In this document: positions 20,368 through 39,064 of the stretch, piece after piece
How the letters are laid out: each line of letters opens with the position of its first letter
Position numbering within the stretch: position 1 is the stretch's first letter
Source: Acidimicrobiaceae bacterium
Lineage (GTDB): Bacteria; Actinomycetota; Acidimicrobiia; Acidimicrobiales; Palsa-688
Assembly: GCA_003156595.1 (NCBI GenBank)
Contig: PMHH01000179.1
Span: forward strand, 1 to 41,613
DNA: 41,613 nt
Reading direction: 5' to 3'
Notes under the pieces: model-generated
What the model was told of the DNA's origin: nothing
What the model saw: the letters and a program-made list of their open reading frames with translations, nothing else
The model's database searches: none
Made by a program: the position numbers and the translations under genes

Positions 20368-20610
20368 ATGAACGACGCTGAGATCGTTGACCATATTGAC
20401 AAACTCGTCGCCGAGGAGCACCAACTTGAGCGCGAGCACGGTGAGCAGGGCTTATCGGAAGAGCAGCGCCAACGGCTTCAGCAGATCGAGGTGCAGCTCG
20501 ACCAGTGCTGGGACCTGCTGCGCCAGCGCCGGGCCTTGCGAGATTACGGTGAGGATCCCAGAGAGGCCGAGGTCCGTCCCCCCGACGTCGTGGAGCACTA
20601 CCAACAGTGA
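20368..20610 (+). CDS. DUF2630 family protein
   Basis: This 80-residue acidic protein matches DUF2630, an actinobacterial family with a helical hairpin. IDKLVAEEHQLE and LQQIEVQLDQCWDLLRQRRA are the signature segments, ending VRPPDVVEHYQQ. It is predicted to form a coiled coil; its role is unknown. GGAG lies close before the ATG. Its TGA overlaps the GTG of the aldehyde dehydrogenase gene (GTGA), so the two are translationally coupled. Confidence 0.9.
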   Translation: MNDAEIVDHIDKLVAEEHQLEREHGEQGLSEEQRQRLQQIEVQLDQCWDLLRQRRALRDYGEDPREAEVRPPDVVEHYQQ

Positions 20611-22097
20611 CCGCGCCGTCTTCGGACAAGCAGGCCGCTGACGAGCAGCGGGTCCTCGACTCGGTCCCGAACGGCCTCCTGATCGACGGCCGGTGGCGCC
20701 CGGCGGCCAGCGGGCGAACCGTGCGAGTCGAAGACCCCGCCACGGGCGAGTCCCTGATCGAGGTGGCGGACGGCGCCGCCGCTGACGCCCTCGACGCCCT
20801 GGACGCCGCCCACCGCGCCCAGCCGGGATGGGCGGCCACCCCACCCCGGGAACGTGGGGAGATCCTCCGCCGGGCGTTCGAGGCCCTCACCGCCAACGCG
20901 GGAGACCTGGCGTTGCTCATGACCTTGGAGATGGGCAAGCCCGTCGCCGAGTCCCGGGCCGAGATCACCTACGCCGCGGAGTTCTTCCGCTGGTACTCCG
21001 AGGAGGCCGTGCGCATCGCAGGGGACTACCGCGTGGCCCCCGCGGGTGGCAGCCGGCTGCTCGTCACGCGCCAGCCAGTTGGTCCGTGCCTCTTCATCAC
21101 CCCGTGGAACTTCCCGATGGCGATGGGTACGCGCAAGATCGGGCCGGCCGTCGCCGCCGGCTGCACCATGGTGCTCAAGCCAGCCACGCTCACTCCCTTG
21201 TCCTCGCTCGCCCTGGCCCAGATACTGATCGACGCCGGCCTGCCCGACGGGGTCCTCAACGTGGTGACCACCAGCGCCGCCGGCGGCACGACCGGACCAC
21301 TGATTGCCGATCCACGGCTCCGCAAACTGTCCTTCACCGGCTCGACCGAGGTGGGCAAACGGCTGATCGGAGCGGCCGCCGAGCAGGTGCTGCGGGTGTC
21401 CATGGAGTTGGGCGGGAACGCCCCGTTCCTGGTGTTCGCCGATGCGGACCTCGATCAAGCGGTCGAAGGCGCCATGCTGGCCAAGATGCGCAACGGCGGC
21501 GAAGCCTGCACGTCCGCCAACCGCTTTTACGTGCAACGCCAGGTGGCCGACGACTTCGCCAATCGCTTGGCGCAGCGCATGGGCTCCCTCCGGATGGGAC
21601 GAGGCACGGAGGAGGGCGTGACGGTTGGACCGTTGATCGACGACGACCAGCGCGCCAAGGTGGCCCACCTGGTTGACGACGCGAAGGCGAAGGGGGCCCG
21701 GGTCCTCTGCGGCGGGGGCGCACCGAGCGGACCGGGCTATTTCTTCGAACCGACCGTCCTTTCAGAGGTTCCGGACGATGCCGAGCTACTGCGAGAGGAG
21801 ATCTTCGGACCGGTGGCGCCCATCGTGGCGTTCGACACCGAGGAGAACGCAGTGGACGCCGCCAACGCCACCGAGTACGGCCTGGTCGCCTACGCCTACA
21901 CGACGGATTTGGACCGGGCGGTGCGGGTGGCCGAGGGGATCAAGGCCGGCATGGTCGGGCTCAACCAGGGGGTCGTGTCCAACCCGGCAGCCCCCTTTGG
22001 CGGCGTCAAGCAGTCCGGCTTCGGGCGGGAAGGCGGCCGCGAGGGCATAGAGGAGTACCTCGACGTCAAGTACATCGCCATCAAGGCCGGCTTCTAG
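20607..22097 (+). CDS. NAD(P)-dependent aldehyde dehydrogenase, succinate-semialdehyde type
   Basis: This 496-residue ALDH oxidises an aldehyde to the acid. Catalytic residues seen are Asn168 (PWNFP), Glu267 (MELGG) and Cys301 (GGEACTSAN); cofactor motif is FTGSTEVGK. The overall sequence (ALLMTLEMGKPVAESRAEI, IFGPVAPI, PFGGVKQSGFGREGG near the end) resembles GabD-type succinate-semialdehyde dehydrogenases, but substrate use is not certain from motifs. It starts with GTG overlapping the DUF2630 stop. A MerR regulator is encoded convergently 21 bases after its stop. Confidence 0.92.
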   Translation: MTAPSSDKQAADEQRVLDSVPNGLLIDGRWRPAASGRTVRVEDPATGESLIEVADGAAADALDALDAAHRAQPGWAATPPRERGEILRRAFEALTANAGDLALLMTLEMGKPVAESRAEITYAAEFFRWYSEEAVRIAGDYRVAPAGGSRLLVTRQPVGPCLFITPWNFPMAMGTRKIGPAVAAGCTMVLKPATLTPLSSLALAQILIDAGLPDGVLNVVTTSAAGGTTGPLIADPRLRKLSFTGSTEVGKRLIGAAAEQVLRVSMELGGNAPFLVFADADLDQAVEGAMLAKMRNGGEACTSANRFYVQRQVADDFANRLAQRMGSLRMGRGTEEGVTVGPLIDDDQRAKVAHLVDDAKAKGARVLCGGGAPSGPGYFFEPTVLSEVPDDAELLREEIFGPVAPIVAFDTEENAVDAANATEYGLVAYAYTTDLDRAVRVAEGIKAGMVGLNQGVVSNPAAPFGGVKQSGFGREGGREGIEEYLDVKYIAIKAGF

Positions 22098-22118: not shown

Positions 22119-22646
22119 TCAGATTTGGAACGTCGGGGTGCAGGTCTGGGGGAGCGTGATGTGGTACTCGGCGGCGAAGGACCGATGCTCATCGGCGCTG
22201 GCTTCGAGGTCGGCTAGGAAGGCCTGCAGGGTGGCGAACTTGCGGACAACTTGTTCCTGGGTGCGGGCGTTGCGCTCGGCGACCTCGATGATGATCTGGG
22301 CCCTCCGCTCGGCGCTGACATCGCCCTGATACTCGCGCTGTAGTTCGCCCAGACTGTCCTCGGCGGCCAGGATGTCGGCGATCTCCTCGAGGTCGAAGCC
22401 CATCACCGCCTGCAATTCGCGGATCCGCACCAGCCGCACTATGTCCGCCTTGGTGTAGCGGCGGGATCCCCCGGCAGTGTAACTCGACGGCTCGGCCAAT
22501 CCGAGCTCTTCGTAGTAGCGCAGCGTCCGGGTGGACACGTCGAGCCGATCCGCCACCTCCCCGATGCGGTAGAGCTCCTGGCCCTCGGATTCGTCGCGGC
22601 CGTCTACGACACGGCCCAGATCGACGGCCGGCCTCCGCTTCTTCAT
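22119..22646 (-). CDS. MerR family transcriptional regulator
   Basis: This 175-residue regulator has the MerR N-terminal winged helix (YRIGEVADRLDVSTRTLRYY, then EELGLAEPS and GSRRYTKADIVRLVRI, about residues 27-85). A long coiled coil with REYQGDVSAERRAQIIIEVA follows, and the C-terminus has one cysteine (PQTCTPTFQI). No metal-binding cysteine set is seen. I use ATG 22646 because upstream codons are low-complexity, though no good ribosome site is present. A 16-bp ACGT palindrome lies 70 bases upstream and is the likely operator. Neighbouring targets may include the GAF-ANTAR gene and itself. The ACGT palindrome type recalls LiuR-like MerR proteins of acyl-CoA degradation. Confidence 0.9.
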   Translation of the reverse strand: MKKRRPAVDLGRVVDGRDESEGQELYRIGEVADRLDVSTRTLRYYEELGLAEPSSYTAGGSRRYTKADIVRLVRIRELQAVMGFDLEEIADILAAEDSLGELQREYQGDVSAERRAQIIIEVAERNARTQEQVVRKFATLQAFLADLEASADEHRSFAAEYHITLPQTCTPTFQI

Positions 22647-22716
22647 CACAGGGGAGGCCGCTGACCCTGACCGCGTGGGGCGGCTAGGTAGTACGGCTGA
22701 TGACTTGATCCTGATG

Positions 22717-22732
22717 TTAACGTCGACGTAAA
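22717..22732. promoter_or_regulatory. ACGT palindrome, probable MerR operator
   Basis: TTAACGTCGACGTAAA is a 16-bp inverted repeat with 7 of 8 positions matched, in an AT-rich patch between the divergent MerR and GAF-ANTAR genes. The form resembles the ACGT-containing palindromes described for LiuR-type MerR regulators. The rest of 22647-22947 contains two T-runs (22814-22832) but no stem that would make them terminators. Confidence 0.5.
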
Positions 22733-22947
22733 TTTCGTATTCACATTGTTGGCTGCCTCGAGAACACGAAAGGTCATGCCATCCATTATTTCCAGCACTC
22801 CGCCGCTCAACGCGTTTTTGCCAGCTTTTTTTCCACCGAGAGCGTTGCCGCCGGCTTGGAGTCGTGGAATGGCAGAACCCGCTCGTGGGATGCGATGGGG
22901 GAACCCAACCGGCGTCCGCCCGCGCCATAGCTCGCCGGCCGAGGACC

Positions 22948-23718
22948 ATGGACGATAAGCAGGCTCCCGCCGGCGACGACTCCATCTCGGCTCTGACTGC
23001 CGATTTCCTGCAGACCGCCCGGGCCCTGTTCTCCGCGGGCAACGTGCAGGACACCTTGACCAAGGTGGCGGAGCTGGCCGTGGCCACCATCGAGGGCTGT
23101 GCCTTCGCCGGCGTCTTCCTCGTCGCGGAGGACCGGGTCACGACTGCGGTGCACACCAACCCCGCCATTGATGAAGTCGACGCTATCCAAATCCGCATCG
23201 GCGAGGGGCCCTGTCTCGACGCTATCGCCAGCGGCGTGACTTTCTATGCGGAAGAACTCGCCGCAGACTCCCGTTGGCCCCGCTTCGGGCCCGTGGCGAC
23301 CGAGGGCGGGATACGAAGTGTGCTGGCCCTGCCTCTGCTCGCGGCCGACTCCTCCCTCGGAGCCCTCAACCTCTACGCCTATTACCCCCGCGCCTTCGGG
23401 GTTATCGACCGGGCCAGGGGCCTGATCCTGGCCTCGCTGGCCGCCCTGGCCCTCTCCACTGCCCAGAGCCACTCAGACGACGAACGACGAGCCGCCAACC
23501 TCCGCGCCGCGGTGGCCACCCGGGAGATAATCGGCCAGGCGATCGGGATTCTGATGGAGCGCGAGCGCATTCCCGCCGATCAGGCTTTCGACGTCCTGCG
23601 CCGGGCATCCCAGCACCTAAAGCTCAAGCTCCGCGAAGTTGCGCAGACCCTGGTCGACACCGGTGAAAGTCCCGACACCGGGCCAACGGCTCCTGAGCGC
23701 CCGCCGCCAAACAACTAA
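22948..23718 (+). CDS. GAF-ANTAR domain protein
   Basis: This 256-residue cytosolic protein has an N-terminal GAF domain (about residues 20-165: AVATIEGCAFAGVFLVAED, IRIGEGPCLDAIASG, RSVLALPLLAADSSLGALNL) and a C-terminal ANTAR domain (about 180-240: ATREIIGQAIGILMERERIP, AFDVLRRASQHLKLKLREVA). ANTAR domains bind paired RNA hairpins to control termination, so this is a sensor and antiterminator candidate. ATG 22948 is used because GAGG precedes it and the GAF domain starts soon after. Two such hairpins with ANTAR consensus were not located nearby. Confidence 0.9.
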   Translation: MDDKQAPAGDDSISALTADFLQTARALFSAGNVQDTLTKVAELAVATIEGCAFAGVFLVAEDRVTTAVHTNPAIDEVDAIQIRIGEGPCLDAIASGVTFYAEELAADSRWPRFGPVATEGGIRSVLALPLLAADSSLGALNLYAYYPRAFGVIDRARGLILASLAALALSTAQSHSDDERRAANLRAAVATREIIGQAIGILMERERIPADQAFDVLRRASQHLKLKLREVAQTLVDTGESPDTGPTAPERPPPNN

Positions 23719-25338: not shown

Positions 25339-27003
25339 TCAAAAGGGCCCGCTGAGCTCGCCGAGGGCCGTGGTGATCCGCATGTTCTCCGAGTAGTCGA
25401 CCGGACAGGCAATGACAGAGACGGTGTCGGCGGCCAACGCCTCCGATAACACCGGGAGCAAGTCGTCGGCGGCGTCGATCCGATATCCGCGCGCCCCGAA
25501 ACTCTCGGCGTACGCCACGAAGTCTGGATTGGAAAAACGGATGGCGACGTCGTAACCCAGCTCCATCTCCATTTTCCATTTGATCAGCCCGTAGGCGTCG
25601 TCCTGCCAGACCAGCACGGTCAACGGGACCCGCTCCCTTACCGCGGTCTCCAGTTCCTGGGAGTTCATGAGAAACGCACCGTCACCGACGGCGGCGAGCA
25701 CGCGCCGGTCGGGCCGGGCCAGCTTCGCCGCGATGGCGCCGGGAAGGGCGAACCCCATGGTCGACAACCCGTTGGAGATGAGGCAGGTATTGGGCTCGTA
25801 CGTCGGGTACAGCCGGGCCATCCACATCTTGACTGCCCCGGTATCGGCCAGCACGATGTCACCGCGGCCCATGGCCGCCCGGGTGTCGGCCACCACCCGC
25901 TGGGGTTTGAGCGGAAACCCGTTGTCGGCCGCCCCTCGCTCCAACTCGTCGATCAAGAGGCGGCGGATCCGCTCGCCGCTGGCGGCCGCCTCGAACCGTC
26001 GGGTGGTGGCCGCGCTCAGGGCGTCGAGGGTGCGGCTGAGATCAGCTTGCACCCCGACCTCGACGTCGTAGTGATTGTCGACCTCGGCCGGGAAGCGGCT
26101 CAAGTGCAGTATGCGCTTGTCGCCGTTCGGATTGATCCGGACCGGGTCGAACTCCTGAAGTTCATAACCGACGCAGACGACCACGTCGGCCTCGTCAAAA
26201 CCGAAGTTGACGTAGTCGTGCCGCATAAATCCGACGGCACCGAGGGAATTCGGGTTGTCGTCGGGGAACACACCCTTGCCGTGGAAGGTGGTCGCCACCG
26301 GCAGGCCGAGCTCGGTGGAGAACCGCATCAGGGCGTCGGCCGCGCCCGCTCGGGCCGCCCCGTGCCCGGCCAGCACGATCGGGCGGGTGGCGGAATCGAG
26401 CACGGCGGCCGCCCGGGCGATCTGTTCAGTCGACGGCTCGTCGGGCCGGGGGACGTTGATTTCCAGGGGAGCCGACCCGGCCGGAGCCGGCGCGGCTTCA
26501 ATGTCTTCGGGGACGGCCAAGTACACGGCGCCCGGCCGTTCGGTCTGGGCCAGCTTGAAGGCCTTACGGATCATCTCGGGCACGGCGCCGGGCGTGAGCA
26601 CCATGCTGGCCCACTTGGTGACCGGAGTGAACATCGACACCAGGTCGACACTCTGATGTGACTCCTTGTAGATCCGGTTGAGCCCCACCTGAGCCGACAG
26701 CGCCAGCATCGGAGTGCTGTTGGTGGTGGCGTCGGCCACGCCGAGCAGCAGGTTGATGGCGCCGGGGCCGAGGGTGGCCGAGCACACGCCCGCCTCCCCG
26801 GTGAGCCGTCCGTGGATCTCCGCCATAAAGGACGCGGCCTGCTCGTGGCGAACCAGCACGTAGCGGATGGAGGAGCGCACCAGGGCATCGGTCAAGCGAA
26901 TGTTCTCCTCGCCCGGGATCCCGAAGACGCAGGTGACCCCCTCGTGCTCGAGGCATCTGACCATCAGGTCGGCCACCGTCGCCGGGTCGCCTCCGCCGCT
27001 CAT
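25339..27003 (-). CDS. Thiamine diphosphate-dependent enzyme, acetolactate synthase large-subunit-like
   Basis: This 554-residue ThDP enzyme has the POX/ALS layout. The PYR domain has Glu54 in LVRHEQAASFMAE, which activates the cofactor, and the central domain resembles a DHS-like fold. The PP domain holds the Mg-ThDP motif GDGAFLMNSQELETAV. The segment RIYKESHQSVDLVSMFTPVT is typical of acetolactate synthase-like proteins. Related enzymes include catabolic acetolactate synthases, carboligases and 2-hydroxyacyl-CoA lyases; the present substrate is unknown. No small regulatory subunit is nearby, which fits a catabolic rather than ilvB role. ATG 27003 overlaps the TGA of the DUF35 gene (ATGA). 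The longer ORF start is a shadow. Confidence 0.88.
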   Translation of the reverse strand: MSGGGDPATVADLMVRCLEHEGVTCVFGIPGEENIRLTDALVRSSIRYVLVRHEQAASFMAEIHGRLTGEAGVCSATLGPGAINLLLGVADATTNSTPMLALSAQVGLNRIYKESHQSVDLVSMFTPVTKWASMVLTPGAVPEMIRKAFKLAQTERPGAVYLAVPEDIEAAPAPAGSAPLEINVPRPDEPSTEQIARAAAVLDSATRPIVLAGHGAARAGAADALMRFSTELGLPVATTFHGKGVFPDDNPNSLGAVGFMRHDYVNFGFDEADVVVCVGYELQEFDPVRINPNGDKRILHLSRFPAEVDNHYDVEVGVQADLSRTLDALSAATTRRFEAAASGERIRRLLIDELERGAADNGFPLKPQRVVADTRAAMGRGDIVLADTGAVKMWMARLYPTYEPNTCLISNGLSTMGFALPGAIAAKLARPDRRVLAAVGDGAFLMNSQELETAVRERVPLTVLVWQDDAYGLIKWKMEMELGYDVAIRFSNPDFVAYAESFGARGYRIDAADDLLPVLSEALAADTVSVIACPVDYSENMRITTALGELSGPF

Positions 27004-27401
27004 GCCACCTCGAAGACGGGGACCACTTCTCCCCCTTCGGCCCCCTCGAACCCGATCCGCAGCCGCTGACCCTCGGCCAGCGACCCGGGATCGGCGCCGA
27101 CGATCTGTGACCACCACCACGGGCCTTCGTCAAGCTCGCCGACGACCACCACGATGGACGGCCCGGGTGCATCGTCCTCGCCCCCGCGCCGGCCGGGCAC
27201 CACCGCCCAGCTCACCAGCCGGGCTCCGCCCGACGCCGGCACCCAGCGCAGCTCGGTCGAGCCACACGTCGAGCACTGCCTTACCTGCGGCCGAGACGCA
27301 TGGCCTGCCGGCGAGCAGCGCCGGATCAAAAACTGGCCCGCCGCCGCGCCGTCGAAGAACGCGGCCGTCGTGGCGTCGCGGCCGACCAGTCCGACAGTCA
27401 T
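27000..27401 (-). CDS. DUF35 OB-fold protein (thiolase partner)
   Basis: This 133-residue protein has an N-terminal rubredoxin-like part followed by an OB-fold (RLVSWAVVPG, SIVVVVGELDEGPW, GQRLRIGFEG). DUF35 proteins pair with SCP2-type thiolases or aldolases and bind acyl-CoA. The zinc ribbon seems incomplete: the second CxxC is present (RQCSTCGS), but the first knuckle is CSPAGH instead of CxxCG, so zinc may be bound by Cys3His or lost. It overlaps both neighbours by ATGA, ideal for producing a stoichiometric complex with the upstream thiolase. Confidence 0.85.
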   Translation of the reverse strand: MTVGLVGRDATTAAFFDGAAAGQFLIRRCSPAGHASRPQVRQCSTCGSTELRWVPASGGARLVSWAVVPGRRGGEDDAPGPSIVVVVGELDEGPWWWSQIVGADPGSLAEGQRLRIGFEGAEGGEVVPVFEVA

Positions 27402-28633
27402 GGCGGCCCCGTCCCAAGCACGAGCGTGGCGTGATGGTCGAGGATGCCACCGTTGCCGCTGACGAGCACCACGTCATGCGGGTCGGCTTGGCGCGCCCCG
27501 CCCTGCCCTCGCACCTGGATCACCGCTTCGGACAACGGCGTCATGCCCCACATGTAGTACGACGAGAGCTGACCACCACCGGTGTTGCACTTGAGCTTGC
27601 CATCCGGGCCGAGGGCACCCCCGGACACGAAGGCGCCCCCCTCGCCCTTTTCACAAAATCCGTAGTCCTCCAGGGACACCAACACCGTGTACGTGTAGCA
27701 GTCGTACAACTCGGCCACATCGACCTCGGCGAGCGTGACCCCGGCCATTCCCAGCGCGGCCGGACCAGACTGGGCCGCTCCCGTCACCAGACCGAAGTTT
27801 TCATCCCGGTCAAAGAGGCGACCCGGGTGACTCTGCGCCCATCCCAGCACGTGAACCGGTGGCTGGGCCAGCGACCTGGCTCGCGCTTCACTCGTCACTA
27901 TCACCGCGATCCCGCCGTTGGAGACCAGGCAGCAGTCGAGCAAGTGGAACGGTTCCACGATCCAGCGGGACGCCTGGTGGTCGGCGAGGGTGAGCGGCTC
28001 GCGCATCTGGGCGAGAGGGTTGGTGGCGGCCCAGGCCCGCTGGGCGACCGCGATGGCGCCGAAGTCCTCGGTGGTCGTGCCGTAACGGAGCATGTGCCGC
28101 CGAGCGGCCAGGGCATACAGCGTGTTGGCCCCGCTGACGCCGGTCGCCGCCAGCAGCCCGCCCCAGCCGGTCGGGATCCGGCGCTCGGCCCGACCGGTCC
28201 CGGCCCGCGGGCCGCTGTACACGTCGCCCGCCGACCGGCCCGGCCGCAGCGGGGCGTCCGCGAACACGCACGCCACCATCTCGGCCATGCCCGCCTGCAC
28301 GGCCATGGACGCCACCTGCACCATCGCCCCGGCGGTCGACCCGTAACCGTGCATCTCCGACAACAGCTTCAGGTCGTGCAGATCCAGGTCCCGCTGCAAC
28401 CCCAAGCCCACTCCCCCGCTGCTCCCGTTGGAGGTAAGCAGACCGTCGACGTCGCCGAGGGTGCAGCCGGCGTCCGCCACGGCCAAGCGCACCGCTTCGG
28501 CCGCGAAGCTGGCGGCCGACCGGCCGTACACCTGGCCCAGCTCGGTCATGCCGAGGCCGGCGATCACCGGACGTCGGTCGAGGTTGGCGGGCACCGGCCC
28601 CGAAGGTAGCGTCCGGCCGGCTGCTGCGGCCAC
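27398..28633 (-). CDS. Thiolase-like lipid-transfer protein (Ltp/SCP2-thiolase type) lacking the usual cysteine
   Basis: This 411-residue thiolase-superfamily protein begins AGLGMTELGQVYGRSA. Where thiolases carry the nucleophilic cysteine (NxCxSG), this one reads MHGYGSTAGAMVQ (residues 94-106). Near the C-terminus the GHPxG histidine block is replaced by GGGQLSSYYMWGMTPL (about 352-367), with tyrosines in that area. The segment ELYDCYTYTVLVSLEDYGFC is a hallmark of actinobacterial Ltp-type proteins. Ltp2, a related enzyme of steroid side-chain degradation, is a retro-aldolase that works with a DUF35 domain and uses tyrosine rather than cysteine. The directly coupled DUF35 gene supports the same role here, with an unknown substrate. 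Confidence 0.88.
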   Translation of the reverse strand: MAAAAGRTLPSGPVPANLDRRPVIAGLGMTELGQVYGRSAASFAAEAVRLAVADAGCTLGDVDGLLTSNGSSGGVGLGLQRDLDLHDLKLLSEMHGYGSTAGAMVQVASMAVQAGMAEMVACVFADAPLRPGRSAGDVYSGPRAGTGRAERRIPTGWGGLLAATGVSGANTLYALAARRHMLRYGTTTEDFGAIAVAQRAWAATNPLAQMREPLTLADHQASRWIVEPFHLLDCCLVSNGGIAVIVTSEARARSLAQPPVHVLGWAQSHPGRLFDRDENFGLVTGAAQSGPAALGMAGVTLAEVDVAELYDCYTYTVLVSLEDYGFCEKGEGGAFVSGGALGPDGKLKCNTGGGQLSSYYMWGMTPLSEAVIQVRGQGGARQADPHDVVLVSGNGGILDHHATLVLGTGPP

Positions 28634-28699
28634 CTGACCGGCCCCCGGACAGCGGTCCAGCTTGGAAGTCCGGTGACGGTGCGGTCAGAATGACTCTTC

Positions 28700-29008
28700 G
28701 TGGATCTGAAACCGGGTGTGAGACTCCGTTCACCGGTATGTGAGGTCGAGGCGATCGTCATCAAGGCGCCGCCGACGTCCATCGACCTGCGCTGTGGGGG
28801 CCACCCCATGCTGGCGATTGATGCCACTCCCCCGGCGGCCTCAACCGCAGAGCCCGGATTCGATGGAGGCAGCGCCCTCGGCAAGCGCTATACGGACGGG
28901 GAAGGGACCCTAGAGGTGCTCTGCACCAAGCCCGGCCCTTCGTCTCTGTCGGTGGGCGACAAGCTGTTGCAGATCAAAGAAGCCAAGCCGCTGCCGTCCT
29001 CGGATTAG
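28700..29008 (+). CDS. Conserved small protein with Cys-Gly-Gly-His motif next to an acyl-CoA ligase
   Basis: GTG 28700 opens a 102-residue protein with three cysteines (SPVCEVEAIVIKAP, LRCGGHPML, LEVLCTKPGPSSLSVGDK) and a C-terminal LQIKEAKPLPSSD. I recall similar actinobacterial proteins located beside AMP-ligases, but no function. The CGGHPM motif could bind a metal. It is 8 bases before the ligase gene and divergent from the Ltp operon, sharing a 66-bp intergenic region (28634-28699) that contains CCGGAC-N17-GTCCGG (28645-28673). Confidence 0.6.
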   Translation: MDLKPGVRLRSPVCEVEAIVIKAPPTSIDLRCGGHPMLAIDATPPAASTAEPGFDGGSALGKRYTDGEGTLEVLCTKPGPSSLSVGDKLLQIKEAKPLPSSD

Positions 29009-29016
29009 GACCGCCC

Positions 29017-30537
29017 GTGCATTTGGCGATGCTCCTACAAATGGCCGCTGACGGCATGAGCGACCGGGTCGCCGTGGGGACCCTCGCGGCGCCGATGACC
29101 ATGGCGGAGCTGGGTGAAGGTTCGATGCGGGTCGGTAGTTTTCTGGCGGCGCAGCGGGGTGATCGGGTCGGCCTGATAGACCTCAACTCCGAGGCGATCC
29201 CCCTCACCCTCTTCGGGGCCGCGCTCGCCGGCAAGCCTTTCGTGCCACTCAATTACCGGCTGACCGATGATCAGCTGCGAAGCATCGTGGCCCGGATCGC
29301 CCCCGCGACCATCGTGGTGGGAGAAGGAATCGCGGCGCGACTCGGCGACCTCGAGGACATCGTCGTGGTTACCAGGCAGGAGCTGCTCGCCGTCGCCCGT
29401 GACGCAGGCCAGCCGCTCGCCGATCCGTACGGCGGAGACCCCGAGTCGATCGCGGTCCTTCTCTATACCAGCGGCACGACCGGCGAGCCCAAGGCGGCCG
29501 TGCTGCGCCACCGCAACCTGGCCTCCTACATCCTGTCGACCGTCGAGTTCGCGGGTGCTGCTCCCGACGAGGCCGCTCTCGTCAGCGTGCCGCCCTATCA
29601 CATCGCCGGCTTGTCCGCCGTGTTGTCCTCGACGTATGCCGGGCGCCGGATCGTGTACGCCGAGACGTTCGAGCCGGCCTCGTGGGTCTCGCTCGTCCGA
29701 TCCGAGCGCGTCACTCACGCCATGGTCGTGCCCACCATGCTCAACCGGATTCTCGACGTCGTCGACGTTGTCGACCACGGCGGGCTGCCCTCGCTGCGGA
29801 TCGTCTCCTACGGGGGCGGGCCCATGCCGGCGGAGGTGATAGGGCGCGCCATGGAGCTGCTGACCGGGGTCGATTTCGTCAACGCCTATGGCCTGACCGA
29901 GACCTCGAGCACCATCGCCCTGCTCGGCCCCGAAGACCACCGGGAGGCCTTCGCCAGCGGCGATTCGGCCGTCCGAGCCCGGCTGGGGTCGGTGGGCCGT
30001 CCCCTGCCGACGGTCACCGTCACGATCCGCGGGCCGGGCGGGGAGCCGCTCCCGACCGGTCAACGGGGAGAGATCTGGGTCCAAGGGGAGCAGGTTTCGG
30101 GCGAATATCTCGGGGCCGGGGCTGGGGCCGCCGACGGCTGGTTCCATACCCGCGACGCCGGTCATCTCGATCAAGCCGGTTTCCTCTACGTCCACGGTCG
30201 CCTGGATGACGTGATCGTCCGGGGAGGCGAGAACCTGTCGCCGGGCGAGATCGAGGCCGTGCTGGTCGAGCATCCCGCAGTGTTGGCCGCCGCCGTAGTT
30301 GGCGTGCCGGACACCGAGTGGGGCGAGAAGGTTGTCGCCGCGGTCATCCTGGCCGATGGCGCTCACGCCAGTGAGGATGAGCTCCGCAACTTCGTCCGTG
30401 CTCGCCTGCGCTCGACCAAGACGCCCGAGCGGATCCAGGTCCGGGCCGAGTTGCCCTTCAACGAGACCGGCAAGCTGCTCCGCCGGGTCCTACGAGAAGA
30501 GCTGGCGGCCGCGTTCGTCAGCCCCATTGCGAGCTGA
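29017..30537 (+). CDS. AMP-forming acyl-CoA synthetase
   Basis: This 506-residue ANL-superfamily ligase converts a carboxylic acid, ATP and CoA to acyl-CoA. Core motifs in order: YTSGTTGEPKAA (150-161, P-loop), NAYGLTETSS (A5), GWFHTRDAGHLD (A7), GRLDDVIVRGGENLSPGEIE (A8 hinge) and NETGKLLRR (A10 catalytic lysine). It is shorter than usual at the N-terminus, consistent with medium-chain or aromatic acid ligases. GTG 29017 follows the small Cys protein by 8 bases; the LLM oxidoreductase begins 8 bases after its stop. It probably activates the substrate for the divergent Ltp/DUF35/ThDP operon. Confidence 0.93.
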   Translation: MHLAMLLQMAADGMSDRVAVGTLAAPMTMAELGEGSMRVGSFLAAQRGDRVGLIDLNSEAIPLTLFGAALAGKPFVPLNYRLTDDQLRSIVARIAPATIVVGEGIAARLGDLEDIVVVTRQELLAVARDAGQPLADPYGGDPESIAVLLYTSGTTGEPKAAVLRHRNLASYILSTVEFAGAAPDEAALVSVPPYHIAGLSAVLSSTYAGRRIVYAETFEPASWVSLVRSERVTHAMVVPTMLNRILDVVDVVDHGGLPSLRIVSYGGGPMPAEVIGRAMELLTGVDFVNAYGLTETSSTIALLGPEDHREAFASGDSAVRARLGSVGRPLPTVTVTIRGPGGEPLPTGQRGEIWVQGEQVSGEYLGAGAGAADGWFHTRDAGHLDQAGFLYVHGRLDDVIVRGGENLSPGEIEAVLVEHPAVLAAAVVGVPDTEWGEKVVAAVILADGAHASEDELRNFVRARLRSTKTPERIQVRAELPFNETGKLLRRVLREELAAAFVSPIAS

Positions 30538-30545
30538 GTACAGAC

Positions 30546-31580
30546 ATGCAATTCGACCTCATGGCCCGTTCGTCCACCTGGGCGGCAATGGCCCGGTTGG
30601 CCCAGGATGTGGAGGCGGCCGGCTTCTCGGGGATGCTGTTTACCGAGACGACCCAGACCCCGTGGATGTCGATCGCGGCGGCGGCGACCGCCGCCCCGCG
30701 GCTGGAGTTCTGCACCGGGATCGCCGTCGCCTTCCCCCGCAGCCCGATGATCGCCGCCGGCCTGGCTTGGGAGCTGGCCGAGAACACCGGCGGAAGGTTC
30801 CGGCTCGGCCTCGGCAGCCAGGTGCGAGCCCACATCGAACGCCGCTACAGCGCCGTGTTCGACCCGCCCGGCCCCCGGATGCGGGATTACGTCCGGGCGG
30901 TCAAGGCCTGCTTCCGCGCCTTTGGCGGCGAGGAGCCGCTGCACCACGACGGGCCCTACTACCAGCTGTCGCTGTTGCCCGCGGCCTGGGCGCCCCGGCG
31001 CCATGCGTACGGCGACATCAAGGTCGACGTGTCGGCGGTCGCGCCCTGGATGGTTGCGATGGCCGGGGCGGAGGCGGATGGCATCCACGTCCATCCCTTT
31101 CACTCGGTGCCGTACCTGCGCAACCGGCTGTTGCCGGCGGTGGCCGAGGGGGCCGCAGCAGCCGGCAGGCCGGCGTCGGAGGTCGACCTGATAGTCCCGG
31201 TGTTCGCCATCCCCGGGGACACGCCGGAGCAACGGGCCCCGATGCTGGAACGGGCCCGGGCCCAGATCGCCTTCTACGGGTCGACCAAGAATTATGCGTT
31301 CCAGTTCGACGACCTGGGCTTCGAAGGGACCTCGGCCCGCCTCAACGAGAAGCTCAAGGCCGGCGACCTCGCCGGCATGGCTGCCACCATCACCGACGAG
31401 ATGCTGGAGCAGTACGCGGTGGTTGCCACCTGGGACGAAATGGCCGGCGCCCTCGAGGCGCGTTACGCCGGCGTCGCCAGCCGGCTGGTCATGTACCTGG
31501 CTGCCGAGTCGATCGCCGCCGACCCGACGACACTTGGTCGTTGGGGTGAGATCGCCCGGTCGGTGACCAACCAGGTCTAG
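30546..31580 (+). CDS. LLM-class F420-dependent oxidoreductase (TIGR03617-like)
   Basis: This 344-residue luciferase-like monooxygenase-fold enzyme shows the family beta/alpha barrel. Typical pieces are MLFTETTQTPWMSIAAAATA, IAVAFPRSPMIAAGLAWELA, NTGGRFRLGLGSQVRAHIER and PPGPRMRDYVRAVKACF. The segment around LGLGSQVRAHIERRY is what I associate with the TIGR03617 group. It probably uses reduced or oxidised F420, or flavin, to oxidise an acyl-CoA or alcohol. It is third in a plus-strand cluster (small protein, ligase, LLM). No F420 biosynthesis gene is in the window. Confidence 0.9.
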   Translation: MQFDLMARSSTWAAMARLAQDVEAAGFSGMLFTETTQTPWMSIAAAATAAPRLEFCTGIAVAFPRSPMIAAGLAWELAENTGGRFRLGLGSQVRAHIERRYSAVFDPPGPRMRDYVRAVKACFRAFGGEEPLHHDGPYYQLSLLPAAWAPRRHAYGDIKVDVSAVAPWMVAMAGAEADGIHVHPFHSVPYLRNRLLPAVAEGAAAAGRPASEVDLIVPVFAIPGDTPEQRAPMLERARAQIAFYGSTKNYAFQFDDLGFEGTSARLNEKLKAGDLAGMAATITDEMLEQYAVVATWDEMAGALEARYAGVASRLVMYLAAESIAADPTTLGRWGEIARSVTNQV

Positions 31581-35359: not shown

Positions 35360-36238
35360 GTGGACGGGTCGATCCGGGTGTCGACGAACCCTGGTGCCGG
35401 GGACGAGCCCGACGTCGAAGCAGTCGGAGCGACACCGGCTCTGCCGTTGCGATCGGCAATCCGACGCTATAGGGGTTATCGAACCGTCGGGCCGCCGGCT
35501 ATCCACCGAGGTCTGCCGTCCGGACAGCTGACGTTCATCGTCAGCCTCGACGACCCGGTCGACATCGCCCGTATGCCACACGGCAATCAGGCGCCCGGAA
35601 GGTTCCAGGCCTTCGTCGGCGGCCTGCACGCCAGCCCGGCGTACATCCGCCATGACGGGTATCAGTACGGCATCTCCCTCGAGCTCACCCCGTTGGGCGC
35701 AAGAGCCCTGCTGGGCGTTCCCGCCGGAGAGCTGGCTGACGCCGTGGTGGATCTCGAAGATCTCCTCGGGCCCAGCGCGGCGAGGCTGGTCGACAGACTG
35801 GTCAATGCCGGGGGCTGGCGGGAACGCTTCGCGGTGTTGGACGAGGTACTGGTCCGGCAGCTACAAGCGGGACTCAGTCCTCCCCGCGAGGTCGAGTGGG
35901 CCTGGAAACAGCTCGTCTCTAGCGGTGGCGCCATCGAGGTGTCGGCGCTGGCCGCCGAGACGGGCTACAGCCGCCGACACCTGGGGGAGCTATTCCGGCG
36001 CGAACTGGGTCTGGCCCCCAAGGTGGCTGCCCGCGTACTGCGCTTCGACCGCTCCCGGCATCTCGTCGCCTGCCCGGAGCGGCCCGCGCTAGCGACCGTG
36101 GCCGCCGTATCGGGCTACTACGACCAAGCCCATATGAACCGGGAGTGGCACGAGATCGCCGGATGCAGCCCCACGACGTGGATGGCCGAGGAGCTCCCAT
36201 TCGTACAAGACGAGACGGTCGAACTCGATACAAGCTGA
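35360..36238 (+). CDS. AraC-family transcriptional regulator
   Basis: This 292-residue regulator has an N-terminal DUF6597-like sensor domain (IRRYRGYRTVGPPAIHRGLP, FVGGLHASPAYIRHDGYQYG, GARALLGVPAGEL) and a C-terminal AraC double helix-turn-helix (SALAAETGYSRRHLGELFRR, then VAAVSGYYDQAHMNREWHEI, ending GCSPTTWMAEE). GTG 35360 is used. Its stop lies 4 bases before the VOC gene, forming the common AraC-VOC pair; it probably regulates that gene. Confidence 0.9.
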   Translation: MDGSIRVSTNPGAGDEPDVEAVGATPALPLRSAIRRYRGYRTVGPPAIHRGLPSGQLTFIVSLDDPVDIARMPHGNQAPGRFQAFVGGLHASPAYIRHDGYQYGISLELTPLGARALLGVPAGELADAVVDLEDLLGPSAARLVDRLVNAGGWRERFAVLDEVLVRQLQAGLSPPREVEWAWKQLVSSGGAIEVSALAAETGYSRRHLGELFRRELGLAPKVAARVLRFDRSRHLVACPERPALATVAAVSGYYDQAHMNREWHEIAGCSPTTWMAEELPFVQDETVELDTS

Positions 36239-36661: not shown

Positions 36662-36933
36662 ATGGACGTCGATTTTGACAGCAGGAGTTCGCTTGCCACT
36701 GGAACCAGGGCTGGTCGGACGGAATGGGAGTGCTCGGGTTCAAAGTCGACCGGCGGGAGCGCGTGGATGAGATCTACGCGGACTTGACCGGCGCCGGGTA
36801 CCGGGGCCAGCAGCCGCCCTACGACGCGTTCTGGGGTGCCCGGTACGCGGTCGTCGAGGACCCCGACAGCAACGCCGTCGGGATCATGAGCCCAGTGGAC
36901 CCCGAGCGACGTAGCGAGTATCGCTTTCCGTAA
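36662..36933 (+). pseudogene. 5'-truncated and frameshifted VOC-family remnant
   Basis: ATG 36662 begins MDVDFD, then a frame change near 36674-36680 leads to QQEFACHWNQGWSDGMGVLG, continuing FKVDRRERVDEIYADLTGAG, YDAFWGARYAVVEDPDSN and VGIMSPVDPERR to a stop at 36931. The latter part is the C-terminal half of a VOC domain; the first half, about 45 residues, is missing. Its 3' end overlaps the convergent MarR-GNAT gene by 50 bp. It appears to be a decayed gene next to an intact relative. Confidence 0.6.
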
Positions 36934-37837
36934 GGACGTCACCCACGCCGTCGCCGAGCTGCTTCTCGAACCAGTGGTCGCCGTACGGCTCGTCGTTGAA
37001 CGCATCGACTTCCCTATAGCCTGCGGAGCGGTACATCGCGACCGCCTCGGTGAGCGCCCGGTTGGTCTCGAGTCGGATGGCGCGGCTGCCGCCTTCGAAC
37101 GCCCGATTCTCGAGTTCTCGGAGTAGGCGACGACCGACTCCCAGCCCCCGAGCGGTCGGTGCCACCCACATTCGCTTCAGTTCGGTTGGTTCGTCGCCGT
37201 GGAATTTCAAGGCGCCGCACCCGATGGGATCCTGCGACAGAGACGCGACCAGGAAGATGCCGGCTGGGGGCCGCATCTCGTCTGGAGGGGCGGGGAGGCT
37301 GTTGGCCAGATCGAACCCAGCGTCGAACCGCCGGTCGAGCTCGGCGAAGTACTGGCGCAGACAATGCTGCGCTATGGGGTCGACCGGGTCAACGACCTGG
37401 ATCTCGATCAGGGACACAGTCAAGAGCTTCTGGACCTGGCTCATGGCGGACACCAGGCGTTCGCGCTGCGCCACGGTGAGAGGGTCGAGCATCGACCGCG
37501 CCAAGGCGTCGCTGCGCCGGTCAAGTTCCGCCCGTTCGGCCCTACCCGTCTTGGTGAGCCGGGCCGTTCGGACGCGCTTGTCTTGCTCGCTCGTGCTCAT
37601 GGTGATCAAGCCGGCGGCCTCCAGGGACCGCAGAATTCGGCTGAGGTACCCCGAATCCAGGGCCAGCCGCGACCGGATGACGCGGACGTCGCAGCCCTTC
37701 GTACCGATCTCCCAAAGAACTCGGGCCTCACCGAGCGGCCGGTCCCGCGCCAGGTAGTGGTCGTCGAGCGCGCCCACTCGTTGTGTGACTGCCCGATTGA
37801 AGCCACGCACCGTATCGATCTGAGGGTCACTGCTCAC
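36884..37837 (-). CDS. MarR-GNAT fusion regulator/acetyltransferase
   Basis: This 317-residue protein combines an N-terminal MarR winged helix (GEARVLWEIGTKGCDVRVIR, DSGYLSRILRSLEAAGLITM, DKRVRTARLTKTGRAE) with a C-terminal GNAT domain (LKRMWVAPTARGLGVGRRLL, RLETNRALTEAVAMYRSAGY). Such fusions are common in actinobacteria and may acetylate a small molecule that also controls DNA binding. GTG 37837 is chosen because upstream codons (Ser/Gly-rich) look non-coding, and a palindrome CTCTGA-N6-TCAGAG overlaps the ribosome site, fitting autoregulation. Confidence 0.9.
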   Translation of the reverse strand: MSSDPQIDTVRGFNRAVTQRVGALDDHYLARDRPLGEARVLWEIGTKGCDVRVIRSRLALDSGYLSRILRSLEAAGLITMSTSEQDKRVRTARLTKTGRAERAELDRRSDALARSMLDPLTVAQRERLVSAMSQVQKLLTVSLIEIQVVDPVDPIAQHCLRQYFAELDRRFDAGFDLANSLPAPPDEMRPPAGIFLVASLSQDPIGCGALKFHGDEPTELKRMWVAPTARGLGVGRRLLRELENRAFEGGSRAIRLETNRALTEAVAMYRSAGYREVDAFNDEPYGDHWFEKQLGDGVGDVLTESDTRYVARGPLGS

Positions 37838-37839
37838 TT

Positions 37840-37857
37840 CTCTGATGTTAGTCAGAG
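37840..37857. promoter_or_regulatory. Palindrome at the MarR-GNAT start, probable autoregulatory operator
   Basis: CTCTGA-TGTTAG-TCAGAG (perfect 6-bp arms) lies 3 bases upstream of the GTG and includes the ribosome site (CAGAGAA on the coding strand). Binding here would block initiation, the usual MarR autoregulation geometry. Confidence 0.55.
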
Positions 37858-37883
37858 ATTTGGCCGCGCGTCTCAGGAAACTG

Positions 37884-38002
37884 TTCCGCAGCGGAAGCGA
37901 GCCGCTGCCGGGGAAGCTGATGCCCGGGCCGGGCCTCAGCTGCGCCAGCCAACCCCACGATTCCGCGGAAGCGCCTCCCGATATTGTTTCCGCGGAAGCG
38001 CC
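37884..38002. repeat. Three TTCCGC-GCGGAAGCG palindromic repeats
   Basis: TTCCGC-A-GCGGAAGCG occurs at 37884-37899, and TTCCGCGGAAGCGCC occurs exactly twice, at 37961-37975 and 37988-38002 (27 bp apart). All three contain the TTCCGC/GCGGAA dyad in the same orientation with the same GCG tail. They lie in the 237-bp region between MarR-GNAT and the nucleotidyltransferase gene and could be operators for the latter. Confidence 0.6.
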
Positions 38003-38074
38003 GGCCCAGCTCCTCGCCCACACTGCAAACACCCCTCCAGCCGTGCACCCAGCCTCACTCGGTACATTTGCTGG

Positions 38075-39064
38075 GTGAGCGAGTCAGCTGATTGTGGTGG
38101 ATTCGTTCCGCTACTCGAGGCATTGGAGCGCCTGAAGGACTGCGACGTACGCCTGGGTGGTGGCTGGGGGGTCGATGTCCTGGCTGGGCGGGTCAGCCGG
38201 AGCCACCACGATGTCGATCTCTTTGTACCCAGGGACGGGATGGTCGCCGCCGCTTCCCGTTTTATTGACCGCGGCTTCGATGCCGTGCTCGAAGAGCCGC
38301 CAGACAGGATGGTGTTGCAGTCACGCGGCGGCCAGCGGGTCGATCTCAACGGGCTCGTTTACCGCGCTGATGGCCACGCCGTCCAAGTCGACCACGAAGG
38401 CGACCTCGAAATCTTTCCGGCGTGGGGCTGGGTGCAGCGCGCCGTGGCGGGCCAGCGGGTGGTGTGCCTCAGCGCCGAGGCGCAGCGGCTCAAGCACCGC
38501 GGCTATCCACCCAGGCGGACAGACGAAACCGATCTAGCTGCCATCGCCCACATAAACGAGCCGCCGCGGTTCGACCCGGCCGTTCGGCCCATGGAGGCGG
38601 GCGAGGAGGATCTGGTGGCAGGTATCGAAACGGCCTCAGATCGACTGCTTCGACCGTTCGGAATGTGGCCACTGCCCCCTTCCCACCCGGAAGCTATCGC
38701 AGCCGAGAGGGCCCGGACCGTAGCCGTCTTGGTGGCTGGACGCCCATCCATTGGCTTCTCGCGCCTGGAGCTGGTCGACGGTCACGCCCACATCGGTCAG
38801 CTGTCGGTGCTGTCCGAGTACGGTCGCCTCGGCATCGGGGCATCGCTGGTCGAAGCGAGCTGCCAATGGGCCTCTCGTCATGGCAATCGCCTCATCACCT
38901 TGACCACCTTCGTTGAAGTGCCCTTCAATGCCCCCTGGTACCGCCGGATCGGATTCCGTGAGTTGCCCGACGCGCTCGATTTCGAGCTGGCAGAAGTGGT
39001 GGCGCAGGAGGCTGACCTGGCGGCCTTCGGAGCACGAGTCGTGATGGCCCGCACCCTCGGCTGA
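38075..39064 (+). CDS. Nucleotidyltransferase-GNAT fusion protein
   Basis: The N-terminal half (residues about 10-150) resembles small aminoglycoside/lincosamide nucleotidyltransferases (LinB/ANT(2'')-like), with LGGGWGVDVLAGRVSRSHHD at 27-46 and DVDLFV directly after, the Gly-rich/DxD catalytic pattern; a third acidic residue may lie in QRVDLNGLVY. The C-terminal half (about 165-329) is a GNAT domain: IGFSRLELVDGHAHIGQLSV, LGIGASLVEASCQWASRHG, and NAPWYRRIGFRELP. A single protein that could both nucleotidylate and acetylate is unusual. GTG 38075 begins VSESADC; no strong ribosome site exists. Resistance to an aminoglycoside-like drug is a speculation from the domains. Confidence 0.8.
   Translation: MSESADCGGFVPLLEALERLKDCDVRLGGGWGVDVLAGRVSRSHHDVDLFVPRDGMVAAASRFIDRGFDAVLEEPPDRMVLQSRGGQRVDLNGLVYRADGHAVQVDHEGDLEIFPAWGWVQRAVAGQRVVCLSAEAQRLKHRGYPPRRTDETDLAAIAHINEPPRFDPAVRPMEAGEEDLVAGIETASDRLLRPFGMWPLPPSHPEAIAAERARTVAVLVAGRPSIGFSRLELVDGHAHIGQLSVLSEYGRLGIGASLVEASCQWASRHGNRLITLTTFVEVPFNAPWYRRIGFRELPDALDFELAEVVAQEADLAAFGARVVMARTLG

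Follow-up and report, generated by a model that had tools for sequence, protein, structure and literature searches.

The DUF35-dependent aldolases of the thiolase fold that we found characterised in the literature are all enzymes of steroid side-chain degradation. Two catalytic pairs have been described among them, Tyr294 and Tyr344 in Ltp2, and Tyr302 and Cys304 of a YDCY motif in CtSal (PMC12329534). A related structure from Sphaerobacter, 4u4e, is an uncharacterised thiolase. For the other enzyme types considered here, described relatives include the alpha-ketoglutarate decarboxylase of Microcystis (MaKGD), which binds its substrate through Lys386 and Lys471 (PMC10418658), and ThnP of anaerobic naphthalene degradation, which is active despite lacking the catalytic Glu (PMC11659651). 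In a literature search on the ThDP enzyme family PRK08322, we found no papers.

Locus layout

We analysed a stretch of 41,613 nucleotides from an Acidimicrobiaceae bacterium, hereafter the window, in which genes for a thiolase, a DUF35 protein, a ThDP enzyme, and a CoA-transferase-like protein follow one another in this order as a minus-strand operon (Table 1). The thiolase/DUF35 and DUF35/ThDP junctions are ATGA overlaps (CCATGACT and GCATGAGC), and 30 bp separate the ThDP gene from the CoA-transferase-like gene. Coordinates, overlaps, and gap all agree with a preliminary description of this DNA, whose interval (25339-31580) left the CoA-transferase-like gene outside. The ThDP gene starts at an ATG, and the mechanical call of a GTG start at 27120 is wrong. 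An acyl-CoA ligase and an LLM oxidoreductase are encoded on the opposite strand. Domains identified across these genes with Pfam and NCBIfam were Thiolase_C_1, OB_ChsH2_C, three TPP domains, AcetylCoA_hyd_C, AMP-binding, and the LLM model TIGR03617, while a scan for promoters and terminators returned sites no commoner than in shuffled sequences.

Table 1. Genes of the operon and its surroundings in the window
Feature	Coordinates	Strand	Basis
Thiolase-fold CoA aldolase candidate, 411 aa	27398..28633	-	Residues, conservation, fold
Stand-alone DUF35 (OB_ChsH2_C), 133 aa	27000..27401	-	Pfam and C3H1 pattern
ThDP enzyme, 554 aa	25339..27003	-	NF006187/PRK08322, named acetolactate synthase
CoA-transferase-like protein, 401 aa	24103..25308	-	Cat1 / 4-hydroxybutyrate CoA-transferase kin
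Succinate-semialdehyde-dehydrogenase (SSADH)-like aldehyde dehydrogenase	20607..22097	+	
Acyl-CoA ligase	29017..30537	+	AMP-binding
LLM oxidoreductase (F420-type)	30546..31580	+	TIGR03617

Elsewhere in the window, a MerR-type ORF (22119-23198, minus strand) overlaps a GAF-ANTAR ORF (22864-23718, plus strand) by about 330 bases, and one of the two starts is probably too long. A tRNA-Gly called by ARAGORN (35539-35624, plus strand) falls within an AraC-type ORF (35360-36238), so that either the tRNA is likely spurious or the ORF misplaced. Two further ORFs, with GNAT/aminoglycoside adenylyltransferase-like and MarR-GNAT domains, overlap on opposite strands (37199-39064, plus, and 36884-38032, minus).

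The thiolase–DUF35 pair and its neighbours

The position of the nucleophilic Cys of SCP2-thiolases is occupied by Tyr97 in the window thiolase, and the His of the GHP motif is absent. This was as the preliminary description had reported, and it extends to all relatives aligned, with the Cys missing in 85 of 85 and GHP in none. Because all 85 relatives lack both residues, a sequencing error is ruled out as the source of the missing Cys. The description had overlooked a YDCY motif containing Tyr310 and Cys312; a further residue, Tyr360, aligns with Tyr344 of Ltp2. All three are invariant across the 85 relatives, within a motif reading YDCY in 79 and YDCF in 6, and are predicted to be the catalytic residues of the window thiolase. 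The best sequence matches in the PDB were Ltp2 (6ok1, 229 bits), 4u4e (226 bits), and Sal (9myr, 145 bits), and the same three entries ranked highest in a fold search with an AlphaFold model (mean pLDDT 78.8, poor at around residues 223-236 and 353-359).

Phylogenetically, the window thiolase belongs to a separate, fully supported clade, and a tree joining this clade to Ltp2 was rejected (AU p = 0.005, with a long-branch caveat). Sal grouped with 4u4e at 80/43. The exact sister of the window clade is uncertain owing to long branches; the 4u4e group is the probable one. The window thiolase is best read as a DUF35-assisted CoA aldolase from a clade of its own. Of the earlier proposal of an Ltp-like aldolase, the aldolase-like thiolase and its DUF35 partner stand, as kin of Ltp2 but not identical with it.

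Of 80 loci, which come almost entirely from Actinomycetota, 78 have a DUF35 gene adjoining the thiolase gene. The window DUF35 is most similar to that of CtShy (9myr_B, E = 1.4e-7) and displays a C3H1-type zinc-finger pattern (C29, H34, C43, C46), which is kept in its closest relatives and is C4 or lost in more distant ones, for example in Nocardia. Four loci from Nocardia and Rhodococcus (L006, L007, L013, and L035) encode a DUF35 without the zinc-finger Cys next to an aldolase with intact residues. The thiolase and DUF35 are a widespread enzyme pair, which probably cleaves C–C bonds in CoA-bound acids outside of steroid breakdown.

Across the 80 loci, a crotonase gene was found within 6 kb of the thiolase in 27, and was directly upstream on the same strand in most of the crotonase loci shown. 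Other neighbours included a doubled CaiB-type CoA-transferase (21 loci), nitronate-monooxygenase-like genes (27 loci, chiefly Actinomadura), an aldehyde dehydrogenase in several loci, and amino-acid transporter genes. These neighbours would suit a hydration followed by retro-aldol cleavage. In the window itself, no hydratase gene is adjacent to the thiolase, and no steroid genes were found among the ORFs scanned, in line with what had been stated before.

Within the window's own family, five genomes (G006, G007, G014, G020, and G027) carry the thiolase, DUF35, and CoA-transferase genes without an intervening ThDP gene; of the six closest relatives, five have DUF35 leading directly into the CoA-transferase gene, and another genome, G001, has the thiolase–DUF35 pair without a CoA-transferase gene. 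What is conserved in the neighbourhood is therefore the thiolase–DUF35 arrangement, with or without the CoA-transferase, and not the ThDP and ligase genes. Every genome checked contains a homologue of the ligase (closest ones 49-64%), but always on a different contig from the thiolase. On G001:C251 and G058:C43, homologues of the window ligase have other Ltp-like thiolase paralogues within a few kb of them. In G001, an LLM copy (78% identical) and the thiolase are divergent neighbours; in G014, the copy (73%) is unlinked to the thiolase, and no close copy was detected beyond these two among the genomes checked.

In the CoA-transferase-like protein, the catalytic Glu of the HTE motif is replaced by Gly, in the window and in its orthologues, i.e., across the whole clade, a substitution missed in the preliminary description, while the QxGxG loop is retained as QWGPG. 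Since ThnP is active without this Glu, the window protein need not be dead; the label “CoA-transferase” is nevertheless unsafe for this gene. The window copy also includes a Gly/Pro/Ser-rich low-complexity insert at residues ~137-156.

The ThDP enzyme and its genomic context

The ThDP enzyme scored 770 bits against NF006187 (acetolactate synthase, PRK08322; cut-off 509), consistent with the acetolactate-synthase-like enzyme originally proposed, but its active-site lysines match alpha-ketoglutarate decarboxylase (KGD) and not AlsS. Based on published MaKGD residue numbers only (PMC10418658), 12 of the 16 residues compared match the window enzyme, with the numbering shifted uniformly by 4 and, further on, by 6. 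The two substrate-binding lysines correspond to K392 and K477, where AlsS has His and Gln, and both are kept in 15/15 homologues from the order and in 6/7 plasmid homologues, the Leisingera copy having His at the second. Three pocket residues differ (V382 to T388, H385 to V391, and A408 to S414) and Gly437 of MaKGD is also unmatched, so that the substrate may be other than 2-oxoglutarate. An OGDH-type protein is present in the window's genome, and its detection in 13 of 14 genomes checked weakens closure of the TCA cycle as the sole role of the ThDP enzyme. Judging from these residues, we consider the enzyme to be a KGD-like 2-oxo-acid decarboxylase with fair, not high, confidence. By extension, the name acetolactate synthase (PRK08322) is probably carried by many genes for KGD-like 2-oxo-acid decarboxylases.

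No ThDP gene was found in any of the 80 neighbourhoods of thiolase relatives, and among 397 genomes of the order none apart from the window's carried thiolase and ThDP genes on one contig, which rules out the conserved thiolase–DUF35–ThDP unit previously envisaged. Of the genomes examined, this is the only one with a ThDP gene between DUF35 and the CoA-transferase-like gene. ThDP orthologues (70-80% identity; G001, G014, G018, G058, and others) are either on a different contig from the thiolase or in a genome that lacks it, and the two relatives carrying both genes (G001 and G014) have them unlinked. The gene gltX, near ThDP in G018 and near the thiolase in the window's family, was dropped as a link between the two because it is a housekeeping gene. 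The ThDP gene thus seems to encode a keto-acid decarboxylase unrelated to the rest of the operon, which it appears to have entered in this one genome.

A recurring neighbour of the ThDP gene is an aldehyde dehydrogenase, which adjoins it in 8 of 15 contexts from the order (some with a flank of only 1.5 kb); the one in G304 is 70% identical to the dehydrogenase of the window. On plasmids, the ThDP gene overlaps an annotated SSADH in Haloarcula, is preceded by an aldehyde dehydrogenase in Leisingera, and stands alone in Streptomyces and Roseomonas. The window's own dehydrogenase gene, which had gone unmentioned, lies ~3 kb from the ThDP gene. Its product is closest to E. coli GabD in the PDB, and scores 575 against TIGR01780, below the cut-off of 646. 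The TRK, MRN, VSN, and GEAC segments align with GabD, and include the Arg/Arg/Ser positions and the Cys that we take, from SSADH structures, to be the substrate site and the catalytic residue. The regulatory Cys of SSADH is a Ser in this protein. Orthologues are found close to the thiolase–DUF35 cluster in G001, G007, and G020, and this type of dehydrogenase is common to thiolase clusters and ThDP homologue contexts.

Possible functions and comparison with described systems

We lean towards reading the operon as two enzymes of different origin, namely a thiolase–DUF35 CoA aldolase and an inserted KGD-like ThDP decarboxylase. The thiolase–DUF35 complex would cleave a beta-hydroxyacyl-CoA by retro-aldol chemistry, with Tyr310 deprotonating the beta-hydroxyl, Cys312 and/or Tyr360 protonating the enolate, and DUF35 shaping the substrate cleft, yielding an aldehyde or ketone and a shorter acyl-CoA. 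In other actinobacteria, the hydroxyacyl-CoA would come from the crotonase, and the aldehyde may be cleared by an aldehyde dehydrogenase. The ThDP enzyme would decarboxylate a 2-oxo acid, as a member of the alpha-ketoglutarate-decarboxylase-like family, and would have an SSADH-like aldehyde dehydrogenase as its natural partner; in this lineage its gene presumably entered the operon at the junction of DUF35 and the CoA-transferase-like gene, is probably co-transcribed, and would be linked to the aldolase at most via a common aldehyde dehydrogenase. Counting against this reading, the ATGA coupling could mean genuine functional coupling, and some ThDP homologues stand alone; the altered pocket residues of the ThDP enzyme, the OGDH-type protein of the genome, and the lack of a hydratase gene next to the thiolase in the window also speak against it. 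The tight spacing of all four genes would also fit the single dedicated pathway of the preliminary description, in which the ThDP enzyme carboligates or cleaves the aldehyde or acyl fragment released by the aldolase, as would the joint presence of close ThDP, LLM, and thiolase orthologues in G001 and G014. This co-occurrence may, however, reflect plain relatedness, and such a pathway seems improbable given that the ThDP gene is absent near every thiolase relative and unlinked in these same two genomes, that DUF35 directly meets the CoA-transferase-like gene in five relatives, and that the ThDP enzyme has KGD-type lysines and an aldehyde dehydrogenase as neighbour.

The ThDP enzyme could also be a genuine catabolic acetolactate synthase of the AlsS type, as its family name and its resemblance to AlsS in the PDB would suggest, and the operon would then serve to produce or consume acetoin or branched-chain precursors. 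At E <= 1e-60, the window's genome has no further ThDP match. This genome is only 77% complete, however, so that a missing ilvB says little, and the replacement of His and Gln by lysines renders this reading unlikely; no acetolactate decarboxylase gene came up incidentally either. Least probable, and in our view very unlikely, is that the operon serves steroid or sterol side chains in the manner of Ltp2/ChsH or Sal/Shy. The thiolase fold, the pairing with DUF35, the YDCY motif, and the C3H1 zinc finger speak for it, but a clade with Ltp2 is rejected, DUF35 is not fused to a MaoC hydratase, the window ORFs scanned include no steroid genes, and the neighbours elsewhere are genes for crotonase, CaiB, nitronate monooxygenase, and amino-acid transporters. 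Steroids are unlikely aldolase substrates.

Returning to the aldolase of the two-origin reading, we tentatively suggest, as a plausible though far from secure extension, that its clade is a widespread third one of thiolase-fold, DUF35-assisted CoA aldolases, which combines the Cys of Sal with the second Tyr of Ltp2 and acts in an undescribed non-steroid actinobacterial pathway of CaiB-type CoA transfer, crotonase hydration, retro-aldol cleavage, and aldehyde oxidation. A common actinobacterial clade with such a mixed active site would carry aldolase chemistry to other acids, and would permit a direct mutational test of Cys312 or Tyr360 as the proton donor.

Compared to described systems, the ThDP enzyme resembles the cyanobacterial alpha-ketoglutarate decarboxylases (SynPCC7002_A2770, sll1981, and MaKGD) as a ThDP enzyme named acetolactate synthase, with Lys386/Lys471 and 10 of 14 other named residues in common and an SSADH-like gene nearby, but differs in three pocket residues, in the OGDH-type protein of its genome, and in its location within an aldolase operon. 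The CoA-transferase-like protein shares fold family, C-terminal domain, and QxGxG loop with the Cat1 family and 4-hydroxybutyrate CoA-transferase, from which the Gly at the Glu position sets its clade apart, and the missing catalytic Glu with ThnP (PMC11659651). The aldolase has the thiolase fold, DUF35 partner, and Tyr pair of Ltp2–ChsH2 (Y294/Y344, corresponding to Y310/Y360), yet Ltp2 belongs to a separate clade and has YDHF instead of YDCY, and the ChsH2 DUF35 is fused to a MaoC hydratase whereas that of the window stands alone, away from steroid genes. The Sphaerobacter 4u4e and its actinobacterial kin are similar in score and fold, but have YDSF, and an HP motif where the window clade has Tyr360. 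CtSal–CtShy (PMC12329534), finally, is less similar in sequence, has Gln352 in place of this Tyr, and lacks the separation of DUF35 from hydratase seen in the window, but is alike in the YDCY motif with its catalytic Tyr and Cys and in the C3H1 zinc finger of DUF35.
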